From the NCBI GenBank assembly GCA_029289325.1, contig JARFTV010000014.1, positions 1-64,000 of the forward strand: 64,000 nt of DNA. Reading direction: 5' to 3'. Positions 3,036 to 38,243 of this stretch are shown piece after piece. Source of the DNA: Alphaproteobacteria bacterium (lineage in GTDB: Bacteria; Pseudomonadota; Alphaproteobacteria; Rhodobacterales; Rhodobacteraceae). Within the stretch, counting starts at the first letter, position 1. Every line of letters starts with the position of its first letter. The notes under the pieces were generated by a model that saw nothing but the letters and a program-made list of their open reading frames with translations, was not told the origin of the DNA and searched no databases. The translations under genes and the position numbers were made by a program.

Positions 3036-3934
3036 CGACCTGGGGCGTTGTGGCGACCGTCAAGGCGCCAGAGGCAGAGTTGCTGGCCTTCGTGGCCCAT
3101 CACCTGGCGCTGGGGGCCTCACGCGTCTGGCTCTATTTCGATGACCCGACCGATCCGGCTCATGCCCGCCTCTCGCGCCTGCCCAAGGTCAAGGCGGTCC
3201 GTTGCACCAGCTTTTACTGGGCGCTGCGCGGTGGACGGCCCGAGGTGCTGACGCAACGGCAGATCTCCAACGCGCTCCATGCGCAGCGCAGGTGTCGGCT
3301 GGACTGGCTGGCGCATATCGATGCGGACGAGTTCATCCACGCCCCAGCGCCCGTGTCGGACCTCCTGTCGCAGGTGCCCGCAGAAATCCCGAACGTCATG
3401 ATGGCCCCGTTCGAGGCGTTGTACGACCCCGGACTGCCCGACGACATCTACACCGCCCGCCGCTTCCGCGGCCCGCTCGGCAAGGCGCATCCCGACCTGC
3501 ACAAGGCCGTCTTCGGACCCATGGCCGAGGTCGTCGCCAAGGGAAACCTTGGCCATATCATCGGCAAGAGCTTCGGCCGCATCGGCTTTCCCAAGGCGAA
3601 GATGGGGCTTCACTCGATCTTTGTCGACGGCAACCGCCTGCGCGACCCGTTCCATCCACAACTGAGGATCCTGCACTTTCACGCGCAGGACCAGGAGGTC
3701 TGGCGTCGGCAACTACCGTTTCGGCTGCAGAACGGCGCCTACAGCTACGATACGGAAAACCGGCTCCGCGGCCATCTGCAGGGGGCAAGCGACGCTGTGA
3801 TCGACGATTTCTATCAGACCGTGATGACCCTGACGCCCGAGAAGGCGGCCCTGCTCGAGGCGCATGATCTCTTGATCACCACCGACCTTGGCCTGCGGGC
3901 AAAGGTGGCGGACCTGCTGGCCGGGCGGCTTTAA
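3032..3934 (+). CDS. Family 2-like glycosyltransferase, second tandem copy
   Basis: The start is the ATG at 3032, four bases inside the preceding gene; the track ORF from 2759 extends it falsely. The 300-aa product (MTTWGVVATVKAPEAELLAF) repeats the architecture of its neighbour: WLYFDDPTDP, then HIDADEFI as the DxD-type motif, then LPDDIYTARRFRGPL, and ILHFHAQD near residue 215. The two differ widely in the middle, so this is an old duplication with probably different acceptors. It converges with the truncated hemoglobin gene, overlapping by four bases. Confidence 0.8.
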   Translation: MTTWGVVATVKAPEAELLAFVAHHLALGASRVWLYFDDPTDPAHARLSRLPKVKAVRCTSFYWALRGGRPEVLTQRQISNALHAQRRCRLDWLAHIDADEFIHAPAPVSDLLSQVPAEIPNVMMAPFEALYDPGLPDDIYTARRFRGPLGKAHPDLHKAVFGPMAEVVAKGNLGHIIGKSFGRIGFPKAKMGLHSIFVDGNRLRDPFHPQLRILHFHAQDQEVWRRQLPFRLQNGAYSYDTENRLRGHLQGASDAVIDDFYQTVMTLTPEKAALLEAHDLLITTDLGLRAKVADLLAGRL

Positions 3935-4314
3935 TCCACGTTCACCAGCACCAGCGCCGCGCGTTGGAAGGTGGCCATGATCTGGGCGCGTTCCTTCTGG
4001 GCGACGCCGGTTTCGACCATCGCCCGGTCCATCACCGCCAGCCAGTCCTCAGCATCCTGAAGCCGGATCTCCACATGGGCGTGGATTTCGCGCAGATTCA
4101 TGTGGCCGTGCTTCTCGTGATAATACCGCCGCCCACCGAAGAAGCCGCAGAGGAAGTCGAACTGCTCGGACCGGACATGCGACAGGCCGTGGCCCTTGAG
4201 ATGCATCTCCATGATCGCGCGGCCCTGGGGCAGGGTCTCGATCAGGTCGTAGAAGTGGTTGACCAGCAGCTTGACCTGCGGCTCCCCCCCGATCCGGTCG
4301 ATCATCGGTTCCAT
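3931..4314 (-). CDS. Truncated hemoglobin, group II type
   Basis: A 127-aa 2-on-2 globin. The N terminus GGEPQVKLLVNHFYDLIETLP, the central FLCGFFGGRRYYHEKHGH, the probable heme-binding (proximal) histidine in LREIHAHVEI and the tryptophan in DWLAVMDRAM all fit the TrHbII (GlbO-like) pattern. Such proteins bind O2 or NO in the cytoplasm and are linked to low-oxygen or nitrosative stress. A strong ribosome site (gagaggagggtgcg) precedes the ATG. The DUF1989-GcvT gene lies upstream on the same strand, separated by the three-hairpin repeat. Confidence 0.88.
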   Translation of the reverse strand: MEPMIDRIGGEPQVKLLVNHFYDLIETLPQGRAIMEMHLKGHGLSHVRSEQFDFLCGFFGGRRYYHEKHGHMNLREIHAHVEIRLQDAEDWLAVMDRAMVETGVAQKERAQIMATFQRAALVLVNVD

Positions 4315-4405: not shown

Positions 4406-6775
4406 TCAGCTCTGCGGCCGCGTCTTCTTCGGGTCGTAATGCGACAGCGGCACGATCACCGCCGGAAGCCGCTTCTGCTGACCGTCCAGCTTGCCGACCT
4501 CCAGCGCCGTGCCGACCTCCGCATGGGCCACATCCACGCGCGCCAGCGCGATGTTCTTGCCCAGGATCGGCGAGCGGACCGAGGACGTCACCTCTCCCAC
4601 CTGCGCCCGGCCCACATGCAGGCAATCACCGTGGCCCACGTCCACATTCGCGTCGATCTCCAGCCCCACGAACTTGCGGCTCGGATGCTCCTTCCGCCGG
4701 ATCAACGCCTCGCGTCCGACGAAATCGTCGGTCTTGGACTTGAGCGGCACGGTGAACCCGATCCCGGCCTCGAACGGGTCGGTCTGGTCGCTGAAATCAT
4801 AGCCGGCAAAGATCAGCCCGGCCTCGATCCGCACCATGTCCAGCGCCTGCAGCCCCATCGGCCGCAGCCCCAGATCCTCGCCATTGGCCCAGACCGCGTC
4901 ATAGACCGCGCTGCCGTCCTTCGGGTGGCAGAAGATCTCGAACCCCAACTCGCCGGTATAGCCCGTCCGCGACACCACAACCGGAGCCCCCGACGGCCCG
5001 CCCAGACGGCCCACCGTGAAGCGGAACCAGCCCAGCTCCTCGATCGTCGGCTGGTGCGGCGCGGTCCAGATCATGCGCTTCATGATCTCGCGGCTGTTCG
5101 GACCCTGGACGGCAAGGTTGTGCAACTGGTCGGTCGAGGATCGCACCATCGCCTGCAGGCCCAGCTTCTCTGCCTGCTCCCTGATCCAGACCCCTCCGTA
5201 ATCGTCGCCGCCGATCCAGCGGAACTGGTCGCGGCCCAGACGGAACGCCGTGCCGTCGTCGATCATCCCGCCGTGCTCATAGCACATGGCGGAATAGACC
5301 ACCTGACCCTGGCTCAGCTTCTTCATGTCCCGGGTCAGCACCCAGTTCATCAGCGCCTCGGCATCCGGGCCGGTCACCTCGAACTTGCGCAGCGGCGACA
5401 GGTCCAGCACCACCGCCGCCTGACGGCAGGCCCAGTATTCTTCCAGCGCGCCGTTCGACGAATAGGCCTGCGGCAGCCAATAGCCTTTGTACTCCACCAC
5501 ATTCCGGGTCTTCTGGCTGATCCGGTCGTGGAAGGCGGTTTCCTTGGTCATCTTCGGCTCCGAGGCGGGCGTGGGGCGATAGGCGATGGAGCGCGAGAAT
5601 TTCTCGGCCCCCGAATAGGTGCGGACATGGATGTCCGACAGATACCAGCCGTTGGCCGGCGAGGTGTCGTCCGGGCAGGCCGAATTCACGCAGACGATGT
5701 CGGTCAGCGCGCGGAACAGCACATAGTCGCCGGGCCGCGACCAGGGCTCGTCGCTGATCAGCACGCCATGCGCGTCGATGTTCGTGTTGAAAAACAGGTT
5801 CACCGCCATCCAGCCGGGCCGCGGATCGACCCCGTGCTGCGCCAGCGCCTTGTTGAAGTTGTCCGAGCAGTTGACGTGGCCAGGATAGCCGATGTCGTCG
5901 TAATATTTCGACGCACAGGCCATCGCAAAGGCATCATGGCGGCCGACCGTGTCCTGCACCACCTCGACCAGCGGCACCCAGTCCTGATCGAAGTACTTCG
6001 AATGCAGGCCCGGCATCGAATAGGCGTGGCCCATCAGCGTCCGGCTGGTCGTCACGTCCAGCGCATGTTGCAGGCCCTTGTCCAGCTTGCGCGCGTCAAA
6101 GCACTGGAAGTCGGTGCATTGGCGCCCGTCCACGTCCAGGATCTGGATATAATCGCCAGCCTTGACGAAATAGCTCTCCGCCGTTGCCGACTTGACCCGC
6201 AGGTCGAGGATCGGATCGGCCAAGGGGTCCGGCAGGTCATAATGCCCGACCATCCGCGGCTTTGCCCGCTGGACCAGCAGCGTGACCGGCGTCGCCGTGT
6301 CCTGCGCCTCGGGCGCCATCGGCAGGCCGGGGACGCAGACCACCAGCCAGCCCTCGTCTAGCGTGGTCAACTCGGCCCGCGACCCGGCAGGGGTTTCGGC
6401 CCCGAAAAGCCGCAGCGCCCCCGCAGTCGCAAGGTCGACCTTCCGCGCGGCCAGCCCCTTGCGCAGCCGCGCGAGACTTTCGTCGCGCGAGGCCAGCATC
6501 GCCTTCAGCCCCTCGGCCGAGGAATTCGCCGCCTGCCCCAGGATCGCCGCGTCGATCCGCCCGTCCTTCGTGGCCGCCACCAGTTCGACCGGCTGGCCGC
6601 CCTCGTCGTTGACCAGCGTCAGCCGGTCGCCCACCATCAGCTGCAGCAGGACCGCGCCACCCCCCGGAACGACGTGACGTTCCTGGCCGTGGTGGCGCGA
6701 AAAGCCCTGCGGCGTCAGAATTCGTGACGGTCTCGGTGGACCCGGAGGAACCGAGGGATAGATCGAGTCCAGCAT
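4406..6775 (-). CDS. DUF1989 / urea-carboxylase-associated domain fused to GcvT-type aminomethyltransferase
   Basis: A 789-aa cytoplasmic fusion. Roughly residues 30-420 carry the urea-carboxylase-associated (DUF1989) sequence, with GDYIQILDVDGRQCTDFQ and CVNSACPDDTSPANGWYLSD. From about 435 the protein is a tetrahydrofolate-dependent T-protein: YWACRQAAVVLDLSPLRKFEVTGPDA, SRTGYTGELGFEIF and ALDMVRIEAGLIFAGYDF. The T domain suggests methyl or methylene transfer from an N-methylated or amino substrate to folate; the substrate is not predictable. The first 170 residues look like a diverged extra DUF1989-like half (VPGGGAVLLQLMVGDRL). A good ribosome site (cggagggtgtc) supports the start. Confidence 0.85.
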   Translation of the reverse strand: MLDSIYPSVPPGPPRPSRILTPQGFSRHHGQERHVVPGGGAVLLQLMVGDRLTLVNDEGGQPVELVAATKDGRIDAAILGQAANSSAEGLKAMLASRDESLARLRKGLAARKVDLATAGALRLFGAETPAGSRAELTTLDEGWLVVCVPGLPMAPEAQDTATPVTLLVQRAKPRMVGHYDLPDPLADPILDLRVKSATAESYFVKAGDYIQILDVDGRQCTDFQCFDARKLDKGLQHALDVTTSRTLMGHAYSMPGLHSKYFDQDWVPLVEVVQDTVGRHDAFAMACASKYYDDIGYPGHVNCSDNFNKALAQHGVDPRPGWMAVNLFFNTNIDAHGVLISDEPWSRPGDYVLFRALTDIVCVNSACPDDTSPANGWYLSDIHVRTYSGAEKFSRSIAYRPTPASEPKMTKETAFHDRISQKTRNVVEYKGYWLPQAYSSNGALEEYWACRQAAVVLDLSPLRKFEVTGPDAEALMNWVLTRDMKKLSQGQVVYSAMCYEHGGMIDDGTAFRLGRDQFRWIGGDDYGGVWIREQAEKLGLQAMVRSSTDQLHNLAVQGPNSREIMKRMIWTAPHQPTIEELGWFRFTVGRLGGPSGAPVVVSRTGYTGELGFEIFCHPKDGSAVYDAVWANGEDLGLRPMGLQALDMVRIEAGLIFAGYDFSDQTDPFEAGIGFTVPLKSKTDDFVGREALIRRKEHPSRKFVGLEIDANVDVGHGDCLHVGRAQVGEVTSSVRSPILGKNIALARVDVAHAEVGTALEVGKLDGQQKRLPAVIVPLSHYDPKKTRPQS

Positions 6776-13001: not shown

Positions 13002-13385
13002 ATGACCGAAACCCGCCTCAGCTTCAAGGAAATGTGCGCCAAGTTCGATGTGACGCCGCGCACCCTGCGCTATTACGAATATATCGAGCTTCTGGCCCCC
13101 GAAAAGGAAGGCCGCGCCCGGTTCTACGGCCCGCGTGAGGTGGCGCGGATGAAGCTGATCCTCCGCGGCCGCCGCTTCGGCTTTTCGCTGGAAGAGATCC
13201 GGCAATGGCTGCTGATCTACGGCAAAAAGGGCGAACGCCCGCAGCTTCAAGCCTGGCTCGACCTCGCCGACCGGCAGCTCGGCGAACTGGACAAGCAGCG
13301 GGCCGAGCTTGATACCACCATCGCCGACCTGCGCGCCCTGCGCGAGACTGCGGTGGAAGAGCTGAACCGCCTGCCCGACCCCTGA
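13002..13385 (+). CDS. MerR-family transcriptional regulator
   Basis: A 127-aa regulator with an N-terminal winged helix-turn-helix ([21 protein letters not shown], then [19 protein letters not shown]) and a C-terminal coiled-coil dimer helix ([21 protein letters not shown]). No cysteine cluster for metal sensing is visible. ATG at 13002 is preceded by gggaggagagcac. It is divergent from the thioesterase-MATE operon by 99 bases, so that operon is a plausible target. Similar MerR proteins in this family sit near acyl-CoA metabolism genes; that is from memory. Confidence 0.88.
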
Positions 13386-13395
13386 CCCAAGGTGC

Positions 13396-13462
13396 GCGGA
13401 GTTTTCAAGAACTCCGCACCGGAAATCCTCGATTTCCGATCCGGTTTCTTCGAAGAAACCGG
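13396..13462 (+). repeat. Three-hairpin intergenic element, copy B
   Basis: Plus-strand order: gcggagtt/aactccgc, cggaaatc/gatttccg, and a perfect 22-base palindrome with arms ccggtttcttc/gaagaaaccgg. It starts 10 bases after the merR stop and ends five bases before the convergent argE stop. Stem sequences differ from copies A and C by paired changes that keep base pairing. Confidence 0.8.
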
Positions 13463-13466
13463 CCCC

Positions 13467-14615
13467 TCAGATCCCCGCCTCCAGCCGGTCCACCAGCCGG
13501 GCCAGCATCATCCGGCACAGCCCGATCTGCTCCACCGTCACGAATTCGTCCGGCTTGTGCCCCTGCGCCATCGACCCCGGCCCGCAGATCACCGTCGGCA
13601 CCCCGAGCCGCTGGTCGAACAGCCCGCCCTCGGTCCCATAGGCCACCTTGATCGTCCCGTTCGCCCCGGTCAGCCCCTTGACGAATTTCACCACCGCCGC
13701 ATCCGACGCCGTGCCAAGACCGGGATAGTCCCACAACCGCTCCACCCGGATCGCCGCCTCGGGGAACTCCGCCCGCAAGGGTGCGACGATCGCCTCGGCC
13801 TCCGCCTCCAGCCGCGCGATCAGGCCCGCCACATCCTCGCCCGCCAGCGCCCGGATCTCGAAATCCAGCACCGCGTGATTGGGCACGATATTGACCTGCA
13901 CGCCCCCCGACATCTTGCCCACATGAAGCGTGGTATATGGCACGTCGTAATCCCCGTCGCGCAGCCCCGTCGCGGCCACCTCGGCCTGCAACCGCCGAAC
14001 CGCGCCCAGGAAATCCGCCGCCAGATGCAGCGCGTTCAGCGCCAGCGGTGCCAGCGCCGAATGGCCCTCGCGCCCCATGCAGGTCGCCCGCAAGGCCACC
14101 TTGCCCTTGTGCCCGGTCGCCACCTGCATTCCCGTCGGCTCGCCGACGATGCAGAACCGAGGCCTCACCGGGGCCGCCTCCAGCAGGTCGATCAGACTGC
14201 GGACCCCCATGCAGCCCACTTCCTCGTCATAGGACAGCGCCAGATGCAGCGGCACCCGCAAGGGCCGCCGCGCCGCCAGCAGCATCGCCTCCACGGCACA
14301 GGCCACAAACCCCTTCATGTCCGCCGCGCCCCGCCCGTAATAGCGCCCGCCCTCCTCGGTCAGCGCGAACGGGGCCTTCGTCCAGGCCTGCCCCTCGACC
14401 GGCACCACATCGGTATGGCCCGACAGCATCACGCCCCCCAGACCCTCCGGTCCGGTCGAGGCGTAAAGGTTCGCCTTGCCCCCGCCCAAATCCGGCACCA
14501 GCGTGACCGCGATCCCCGCCGCCTCCAGCAGCTCCGTCACATAGGCCATCAGCGCCATGTTCGGCTTCGAACTCACCGTGTCGAAGGCCAGCAGCCGGCC
14601 GAGAATCTCGTGCAT
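13467..14615 (-). CDS. argE: Acetylornithine deacetylase ArgE (M20 peptidase family)
   Basis: A 382-aa cytosolic metalloenzyme converting N-acetylornithine to ornithine and acetate in arginine synthesis. Metal-site motifs of the M20 family are present: MLSGHTDVVPV, YGRGAADMKGF and LSYDEEVGCMG, and the C-terminal GPGSMAQGHKPDEFV. The ORF track starts at 14621, but the ribosome site caaagggaga lies at zero spacing to that ATG and about five bases from the ATG at 14615 (MHEILGRLLAFDTVS), which is preferred. It stands alone. Confidence 0.9.
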   Translation of the reverse strand: MHEILGRLLAFDTVSSKPNMALMAYVTELLEAAGIAVTLVPDLGGGKANLYASTGPEGLGGVMLSGHTDVVPVEGQAWTKAPFALTEEGGRYYGRGAADMKGFVACAVEAMLLAARRPLRVPLHLALSYDEEVGCMGVRSLIDLLEAAPVRPRFCIVGEPTGMQVATGHKGKVALRATCMGREGHSALAPLALNALHLAADFLGAVRRLQAEVAATGLRDGDYDVPYTTLHVGKMSGGVQVNIVPNHAVLDFEIRALAGEDVAGLIARLEAEAEAIVAPLRAEFPEAAIRVERLWDYPGLGTASDAAVVKFVKGLTGANGTIKVAYGTEGGLFDQRLGVPTVICGPGSMAQGHKPDEFVTVEQIGLCRMMLARLVDRLEAGI

Positions 14616-14731
14616 CGCCATCTCCCTTTGCCCCCCTGCTAGCGCGAATCCGTCCGGCCGGGAAGCATGCCACCTTGCCCCCGCCCGGCGCTTTTGCGAC
14701 AGTCCCGGACCGATCCAGCCCCGGCCCCCAG

Positions 14732-36315: not shown

Positions 36316-37161
36316 ATGGCTTACAAATCGCTCCTTACCATCGCGGCCTCGCCCGATGGGCTAATGGTGCCAGTGACCGCCGCCGCGCAGATTGCCGTCC
36401 GGCTGGACGCGCATCTCGACGCGCTTGCCCTGGGGGTCGACCGCACCCAGGTTGGCTATTCCTATGTCGGCTCGGGCGCGGTGATGATCGCCGCGGCGAT
36501 GGAGCGCGCCGAATCAGACGCGCGTGAGGCCGAGGGCGCGCTGAAGGCCGCACTGGGCGCCCAGTCGCCCGACCTGCGCTATGCGGTGGAATCGGTGGTC
36601 ACCCAGCTTGGCGCCGTGACCGATGTGGTCGCCTCCCGCGCGCGCTATTGCGATCTGGTGGTCCTGCCCCTGCCCTATGGCAAGACCCGCGGCGTCGAGG
36701 ATGAGGCGCTGACCGAAGCCGCGCTCTTCGAGGGCATGGCTCCCGTCCTGGTGGTGCCGGAACGCGGCATGCGCGACGCGGACCCGCGCCGGATCGTCAT
36801 CGCCTGGAACCAGAGCCGCGAGGCGCTGGTCGCCACGCGCCGCGCCATGCCCTTCCTGAAACGCGCCGACAATGTGCAGATCGTGGTGATCGACCCGCCG
36901 ACCCATGGGCCGGAGCGGTCGGATCCCGGCGGGCTTCTCTGCCAGCTTCTGGTCCGTCACGGCATCCGGGCCGAGGTCACGGTCCTGGCCAAATCGCTGC
37001 CCCGCGTCTCGGACGTTCTGGCGCGCCATCTCCGCGACGTCGATGCCGAGATGCTGGTGATGGGGGCCTACGGCCATTCCCGCTTCCGCGAGGCGATCAT
37101 GGGCGGGGCGACCCGCGACATGCTGGAAAGCGCCGAAGTCCCGGTCTTCCTGGCGCATTGA
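36316..37161 (+). CDS. Two-domain universal stress protein
   Basis: A 281-aa cytoplasmic protein of two UspA domains. The first (MAYKSLLTIAASPDGLMV) is diverged; the second ends with GAYGHSRFREAIMGGATRDM, the G-x2-G-x9-G(S/T)-type nucleotide signature. Similar proteins near cbb3 genes in Rhodobacteraceae are linked to the low-oxygen response. The perfect FNR box upstream supports that. It is divergent from ccoN. Confidence 0.87.
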   Translation: MAYKSLLTIAASPDGLMVPVTAAAQIAVRLDAHLDALALGVDRTQVGYSYVGSGAVMIAAAMERAESDAREAEGALKAALGAQSPDLRYAVESVVTQLGAVTDVVASRARYCDLVVLPLPYGKTRGVEDEALTEAALFEGMAPVLVVPERGMRDADPRRIVIAWNQSREALVATRRAMPFLKRADNVQIVVIDPPTHGPERSDPGGLLCQLLVRHGIRAEVTVLAKSLPRVSDVLARHLRDVDAEMLVMGAYGHSRFREAIMGGATRDMLESAEVPVFLAH

Positions 37162-37254
37162 CCCCGAAAGGGCGGCCGTCCTTGGGGCATCGAGCCCCGC
37201 GGACGGCGTTGCCACGGAAGGCGGACCACGGCGCGCGCCGCCTGCAACCGGGCC

Positions 37255-37322
37255 GCGGACTTTTCGAAAAGTCCGCCCCGGAACCTTCAAAGGTTCCGAT
37301 CCGATTTCTTCGAAGAAATCGG
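37255..37322 (+). repeat. Three-hairpin intergenic element, copy C
   Basis: Plus-strand order: a perfect 22-base palindrome (arms gcggacttttc/gaaaagtccgc), cggaacctt/aaggttccg, and a second perfect 22-base palindrome (arms ccgatttcttc/gaagaaatcgg). It lies 94 bases after the stress-protein stop and ends 9 bases before the convergent phzF stop. Confidence 0.85.
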
Positions 37323-37331
37323 TCCCCGGAC

Positions 37332-38243
37332 CTAGCCGGGCACCCGGATGCGTCCTTCACCGACCGGCACCGCGCTGCCAGCGATCCGCACCTCGACCAG
37401 CTTGCCCGCTGCGACGACGGCCGTCAGCCCGATCTCGCTCGGCCGCCCCATTTCCACCCCCTGGCGCAGGGTGAACCGCGTCTCGCCCTCGCCCAGCGCG
37501 CCTGCAGCCAGAAGTTGCGCCGCGAGAATCGCACTCGCCGAGCCCGTCGCCGGATCCTCGGGGATACCCGCCGTGGGAGAGAACATCCGCGCGCGGAAGT
37601 CGCGGCCGTCACCGGGCGTGTAAAGATAGATGCTGTCCACCCCCGCCGCCTGCATCTGCGCCGACCAGTGCGGCTCGATCGGCCGGGCCCGGCCCAGCGC
37701 CTTCAGGCTGGCGACCGGCGCGTAGAGAAAGCGCGGCCCGCCCTGCCAAAGGCCGGGGCGATGCGCGCCGCTGCCGATCTCGTCGCCGTCAAGCCCCAGC
37801 GCCGCCGCCAGCCGCCCGGCATCCAGCGCCGCAGCGCGGTCGGGCGCATCGGCCACGCCATGGGGAATGACCGGCGCCACGAACTCCGCCCGGACCGCCC
37901 CGCCCCGTCGGCTGACCCGGACCGGAACCAGCCCGGCCTCTTCCTCCAGCACAAGCTCGCGGTCGAAATCGCCGGAGGCCCCGGCACAGGTCAGATGGAT
38001 CGCGCAACCGATGGTCGGGTGACCGGCAAAGGGGATCTCGGCCGTGGGAAAGAAGATGCGGACCCGTGCTGTATGGCCGGGGTCCCGGGGCGCCTGGACA
38101 AAGATCGTCTCGGACAGGTTGAACTCGCGCGCAAGGGTCTGCATCTGCGCGGTGGTCAGCCCGTCCGCGCCCAGGACGATGGCCAGGGGGTTTCCGGCAA
38201 AGGGCCGGTCGGTAAAGACATCGCAGGTGTGGAAGGTCAGCAT
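37332..38243 (-). CDS. PhzF-family isomerase
   Basis: A 303-aa protein of the PhzF / diaminopimelate-epimerase-like fold. TDRPFAGNPLAIVL, NLSETIFV (the catalytic Glu position), FFPTAEIPFAGHPTIGCAIH and GIPEDPATGSASA are hallmark segments. Outside phenazine clusters these proteins are isomerases with unknown substrates. It is monocistronic. Confidence 0.88.
   Translation of the reverse strand: MLTFHTCDVFTDRPFAGNPLAIVLGADGLTTAQMQTLAREFNLSETIFVQAPRDPGHTARVRIFFPTAEIPFAGHPTIGCAIHLTCAGASGDFDRELVLEEEAGLVPVRVSRRGGAVRAEFVAPVIPHGVADAPDRAAALDAGRLAAALGLDGDEIGSGAHRPGLWQGGPRFLYAPVASLKALGRARPIEPHWSAQMQAAGVDSIYLYTPGDGRDFRARMFSPTAGIPEDPATGSASAILAAQLLAAGALGEGETRFTLRQGVEMGRPSEIGLTAVVAAGKLVEVRIAGSAVPVGEGRIRVPG

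Follow-up and report, generated by a model that had tools for sequence, protein, structure and literature searches.

A probable REP/BIME-like repeat of three ordered palindromes at gene 3' ends in Rhodobacteraceae

What keeps three neighboring hairpins paired while their stem sequences change: selection on an RNA, or a process that acts on the DNA? The question is raised by a 64-kb window, the whole 64,000-nucleotide stretch of Rhodobacteraceae DNA that we analyzed. An initial annotation had described a three-hairpin element at three places in this window. The element is indeed there, with coordinates right to within 1–2 bases: copy 1 spans 37255–37322 (+), copy 2 spans 13396–13462 (+) and copy 3 spans 4396–4330 (-). 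A sequence-blind de novo scan for tandem hairpin arrays returned exactly these three copies from the window, and the same scanner found none in five Markov shuffles of it, which rules out a chance origin of the arrays. The hairpins, from the array scan and RNA folding, and the genes around them are as follows.

37255-37276, 37279-37298, 37301-37322, plus strand: hairpins of copy 1
36316-37161, plus strand: universal stress protein family gene (usp; Pfam Usp, gene caller), with copy 1 at its 3' end, 94 nt past the stop
37332-38243, minus strand: PhzC/PhzF-like gene, convergent to copy 1, stop 9 nt from it
13396-13417, 13420-13438, 13441-13462, plus strand: hairpins of copy 2
13002-13385, plus strand: MerR-type regulator, stop 10 nt ahead of copy 2 (the frame is open from 12582; the gene caller favors 13002)
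13467-14621, minus strand: convergent M20 peptidase gene whose stop is 4 nt from copy 2
4396-4376, 4373-4354, 4351-4330, minus strand, in minus-strand order: hairpins of copy 3
4406-6775, minus strand: DUF1989 + GcvT-domain protein gene, with its stop 10 nt upstream of copy 3
3931-4314, minus strand: bacterial-type (truncated) globin gene, with its start codon 15 nt downstream of copy 3

The element is a compact array of about 68 bp. Three palindromes of 19–22 nt stand in fixed order with spacers of about 2 nt, following the consensus CCGGAGTTTTCGAAAACTCCGG-AC-CGGAGCCTTCAAAGGCTCCG-GT-CCGATTTCTTCGAAGAAATCGG. Loops in the window copies are 4 nt long, except for 3 nt in two hairpins, and hairpin centers are near-palindromic (TTCGAA). 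All three hairpins form on both strands when folded as RNA, at about -36 kcal/mol (copy 1: -36.5 on the plus strand, -36.2 on the minus strand). Copy 3 lies between two same-direction genes and adjoins the ribosome-binding site of the second, the globin gene. The gene at 4406-6775 fuses DUF1989 to an aminomethyltransferase (GCV_T + GCV_T_C) domain in a single protein and is found upstream of the truncated globin in most relatives. Between the usp stop and copy 1, positions 37175-37207 form a separate long hairpin (gccgtcc..ggggc..gcccc..ggacggc) that can be recognized in relatives whether they carry the element or not (L167, L172); it may be a 3' structure belonging to usp itself.

These copies belong to a dispersed family. 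Searches by BLAST (69-nt query) and with a covariance model located about 22 loci in the 4.17-Mb source genome; because the element is palindromic, matches are reported on both strands and match counts have to be roughly halved. The majority of these loci have three hairpins, three have only two (L019, L021, L022) and one is eroded (L020). The element occurs in all 31 same-genus relatives examined and in none of 24 sampled genomes outside the family. Among the matches listed, a scan of named contigs placed it in Tabrizicola, Fuscovulum, Xinfangfangia, Pseudogemmobacter and related Rhodobacteraceae. The phage, plasmid and viral-contig collections searched held no copy, Rfam gave no credible match at gathering or relaxed thresholds, and the open-licence literature yielded no earlier description in Rhodobacteraceae. 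Pairing is free of mismatches in 105 of 144 copies, the remainder forming a thin tail of eroding ones. The most alike copies inside one genome are 97% identical; fresh identical duplicates were not found.

The element is best read as an untagged, RAYT-less family related in kind to REP/BIME repeats, with three palindromes in fixed order. We consider it probable that the repeat is a dispersed DNA element, that its palindromes are maintained at the level of DNA, and that behind stop codons it can cap the mRNA of either strand with hairpins.

Gene 3' ends are where the element resides. Using a simple codon-usage gene caller (coding density 94% in the window), we placed 163 copies relative to genes: 59 lie between convergent genes and only 3 between divergent ones, 9 overlap called genes and 2 sit at locus ends. 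The initial annotation had each copy following a gene in the same direction, which is true of the window but fails elsewhere, since 39 copies in codirectional gaps run with the upstream gene and 51 against it. Position is far more constrained than orientation. A stop codon lies within 15 nt of 119 of 152 copies (78%); among codirectional copies the figure is 68 of 90, against 29.4 expected under even placement in the gap, and 79 lie closer to the upstream stop versus 11 closer to the downstream start. Clustering at stop codons in both orientations indicates that the element belongs to gene 3' ends and is indifferent to its own direction. Copies within genes and in both orientations had been proposed as evidence against an RNA role. 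Both orientations are indeed used, while location within genes is confined to one site: five of the nine overlapping copies represent a single site in cutC, and the others fall at gene ends or in probable start-site over-extensions.

A two-way transcription terminator serving facing genes could explain part of this distribution. Convergent gaps hold 59 of 152 copies (39%), as compared with 16% of gaps of at least 60 bp in the same loci, and in one complete relative 16 of 28 copies lie between convergent genes. However, neither side of the element carries a U-tract, with T making up 10–32% at every one of the 10 positions that follow hairpin 3, and an intrinsic-terminator scan found no site at the three window copies; in Zymomonas, two-way intrinsic terminators are flanked by an A tract on one side and a U tract on the other (PMC7566282). 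Many copies also occupy codirectional gaps, for instance ahead of the globin gene with its own ribosome-binding site. The initial judgement that no U tract follows and that this is not a simple terminator thus stands, and we regard the two-way version as improbable.

Covariation in the stems is real, and it does not settle which molecule is under selection. In the stems 96.8% of cells are paired and 7 of 26 pairs are changed on both sides, a result equaled by 0 of 500 shuffles; the paired stem differences first quoted for the element were correct. At the variable stem pair 6/17 we counted GC 71 times, AT 56, CG 11, TA 3 and others 3. The initial annotation took such changes to suggest selection on RNA and not on DNA, and proposed a cis-acting RNA at mRNA 3' ends, either an exonuclease barrier or a protein-binding RNA, maintained by selection on pairing. 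The strong 3'-end location, the near absence from divergent gaps, the paired changes within and across genera and the equal folding of both strands all fit this proposal.

Mismatches provide a test, since selection on RNA should let GU pass in the transcript but exclude AC. Read in the sense of the transcript, codirectional copies hold 16 GU and 12 AC mismatches, or 5 and 5 among copies with at most two mismatches; most copies came from a pattern search in which some letters were fixed and GU and AC were treated alike. Bacillus cereus terminators show 68 GU to 8 AC intermediates, about 9:1 (PMC5381666), and our count departs from that ratio with a binomial p of about 1e-5, although the benchmark is a guide and not an exact test because its intermediates are inferred and our mismatches are standing. 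Loop variants follow the orientation of the element: in element sense hairpin 3 reads TTGA 51 times and TCAA once, which rejects a loop orientation that tracks the transcript. With GU about as frequent as AC, both orientations in equal use and palindromes kept in coding sequence, the step from covariation to RNA selection is not secured.

The coding copy belongs to cutC, a copper homeostasis gene. Of 27 orthologues in the genus, 9 have the element in frame, with position and orientation the same in every case, and gain about 25–28 residues from it (DRFLRRNRDGAFEGSGPEFSKTP). Examples are:

L113:845-1630: cutC with element-derived insert
L154:6935-7753: cutC with element-derived insert
L020:2602-3411: cutC with element-derived insert

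The other 18 genus orthologues lack the insert, as do the solved CutC chains 1twd, 3iwp and 2bdq, which we take to be the E. coli, human and Streptococcus proteins. By alignment to these chains, the insert would follow a helix and precede the barrel strand that comes after it. The cutC tree rejects a single clade of the nine element-bearing rows (AU p 4e-43) and needs at least 6 changes, which means repeated loss or filling of the site. Palindromes are still perfect in six of the nine copies, and species differ there by paired changes; the other three, the source genome's included, are eroding. ATGGA-like flanks occur on both sides of the element in one species only. Pairing kept inside cutC cannot be explained by a 3'-end RNA function. 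More generally, covarying stems in repeats are by themselves no proof of RNA function, as pairing here is held in both orientations and in a reading frame.

Orthologous sites gain and lose the element. In the gap between the DUF1989/GcvT and globin genes, about 12 of 30 relatives retain the element or its remains and the rest mostly have a 4–18-nt gap, a pattern for which the species tree requires at least 7 changes. Some basal relatives carry what appear by eye to be single-hairpin remnants, so the globin insertion looks old and repeatedly lost. In G003 the PhzF site is without the element and still has the neighboring hairpin. We found no transposase for the element; of the marks of a classical MITE, its consensus shows no terminal inverted repeat and no clear target duplication was seen, and we infer its mobility from presence and absence alone. 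The insertions at cutC and globin look old, so pairing could have stayed perfect there only with active upkeep. Frequent loss and erosion, together with the mismatch, orientation, loop and cutC results, make the cis-acting RNA unlikely as the explanation.

As a separate observation at the globin site (L217, L221, L224, L242, L244), element-bearing relatives usually have GGAGAGGAGG ahead of the globin start. In most relatives that lack the element this sequence is missing, and the stop and start codons lie very close together. Loss or gain of the element there seems tied to a switch between an own ribosome-binding site and translational coupling.

The same layout recurs in other genera in different letters. 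Weak model matches in further Rhodobacteraceae genera proved to be three-palindrome arrays of different sequence, one dialect reading CCGGAATTCTGCAAGAATTCCGG, CGGAAAACACATGTTTTCCG, TCGTTTTCCTTGAAGGAAAACGA (G138) and another GCAGACTTTTGCAAAAGTCTGC, CAGACCCTTGGAAAGGGTCTG, CAATTTCTTATAAGAAATTG (G287). Sequence-blind scans of 200-kb stretches found arrays of 2–4 hairpins at gene ends in G160, G287 and G244, with essentially none in shuffled controls, and none in 200 kb each of the lower-GC family members G034, G110 and G068. In 25 arrays drawn from 9 genera, Watson-Crick pairs fill 677 of 682 stem cells and the others are 2 GU and 3 AC, a count that leans towards pairing because the arrays were found by a structure-aware model or a Watson-Crick scanner. 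Arrays in G160 (L396-L405) reach four hairpins, and their loops share GACGC/GCGTC, a separate dialect with a CGTC-containing loop. A second array type in G287 (L386-L395), CTCCCGCGCCTTGGCGCGGGAG with AGATTTTTC..GAAAAATCT, recurs alongside the main dialect.

Two further readings bear on this pattern. Layout and order conserved across genera, with sequence rewritten pair by pair and throughout the genome into one dialect per genus, might tentatively point to an unrecognized system, without RAYT, that has a co-evolving hairpin-reading partner; such a partner could be a nuclease, a transposase or an RNA/DNA-hairpin-binding protein. A role purely at the DNA level, as the site of a bound protein or of cruciform extrusion (gyrase, a nucleoid or a recombination protein), would suit the Watson-Crick-only symmetry, the independence of orientation and the near-palindromic centers. 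Yet a pure DNA site has no reason to sit a few bases from stop codons, and the stem sequence is free to drift between genera, which leaves this last reading very improbable.

The REP/BIME-like repeat suggests a simple life history. Copies would be gained or lost site by site, and their palindromes may be kept perfect at the DNA level by a need for pairing in propagation, by arm-to-arm correction or by conversion between copies. They survive chiefly directly behind stop codons, where the element could give mRNAs of either strand three stacked hairpins and thus a strong 3' structure. By analogy with E. coli REPs, these hairpins most likely block 3' exonucleases and act on the terminating ribosome or on read-through (PMC12306157). 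The two-way cap would be tolerated and perhaps useful. Counting against the repeat reading, stop-codon position and a cross-genus layout in different sequences are also expected under RNA selection. With its unusual, fixed triple layout and no known mobilizer, the element enlarges the range of repeat families, and it is a natural system in which to test how palindromes in DNA remain perfect. Because dialects differ by genus and the cutC and globin sites exist both with and without the element, its movement, its upkeep and its effect on mRNA can be tested directly in Tabrizicola relatives that grow in culture.

Known repeat families share parts of this design. REP/BIME repeats of the GTAG and CGTC super-families are dispersed, clustered and mainly downstream of coding regions, occasionally in genes; they sit between convergent or codirectional genes and likely form RNA hairpins, and the CGTC type, typical of alphaproteobacteria, has no transposase of its own (PMC3733652). 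At the two outer feet of our element, GTAG occurs in 7 and 10 of 144 copies and CGTC in 14 and 5 (background 8 and 9), which we take as background level and which rules out membership in the tagged super-families. No RAYT-type Y1_Tnp transposase exceeded the Pfam cut-off in 32 genus genomes, compared with 5 of 14 control genomes, ruling out a RAYT-driven REP.

Like REP/BIME repeats, the element consists of short dispersed palindromes that lie mostly 3' of genes and avoid divergent gaps; unlike their single units or inverted pairs, it usually has three different palindromes in fixed order, with no tag and no RAYT. In E. coli, 260 of 496 REPs lie within 15 nt of stop codons and are proposed to act on translation (PMC12306157); the element shares this hairpin directly 3' of the stop codon but differs in sequence and layout. 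Rickettsia palindromic elements likewise combine an in-frame palindromic repeat in a conserved protein gene with intergenic copies (PMC2229807; Ogata 2000), but they are described at many coding sites, whereas the element has one, is about half their length and has three separate palindromes. CIR of Caulobacter and Brucella and YPAL/RU-2 of Yersinia are also small non-autonomous intergenic repeats; by their descriptions neither is a triple-palindrome array, and YPAL is about 168 bp long (PMC2229807).
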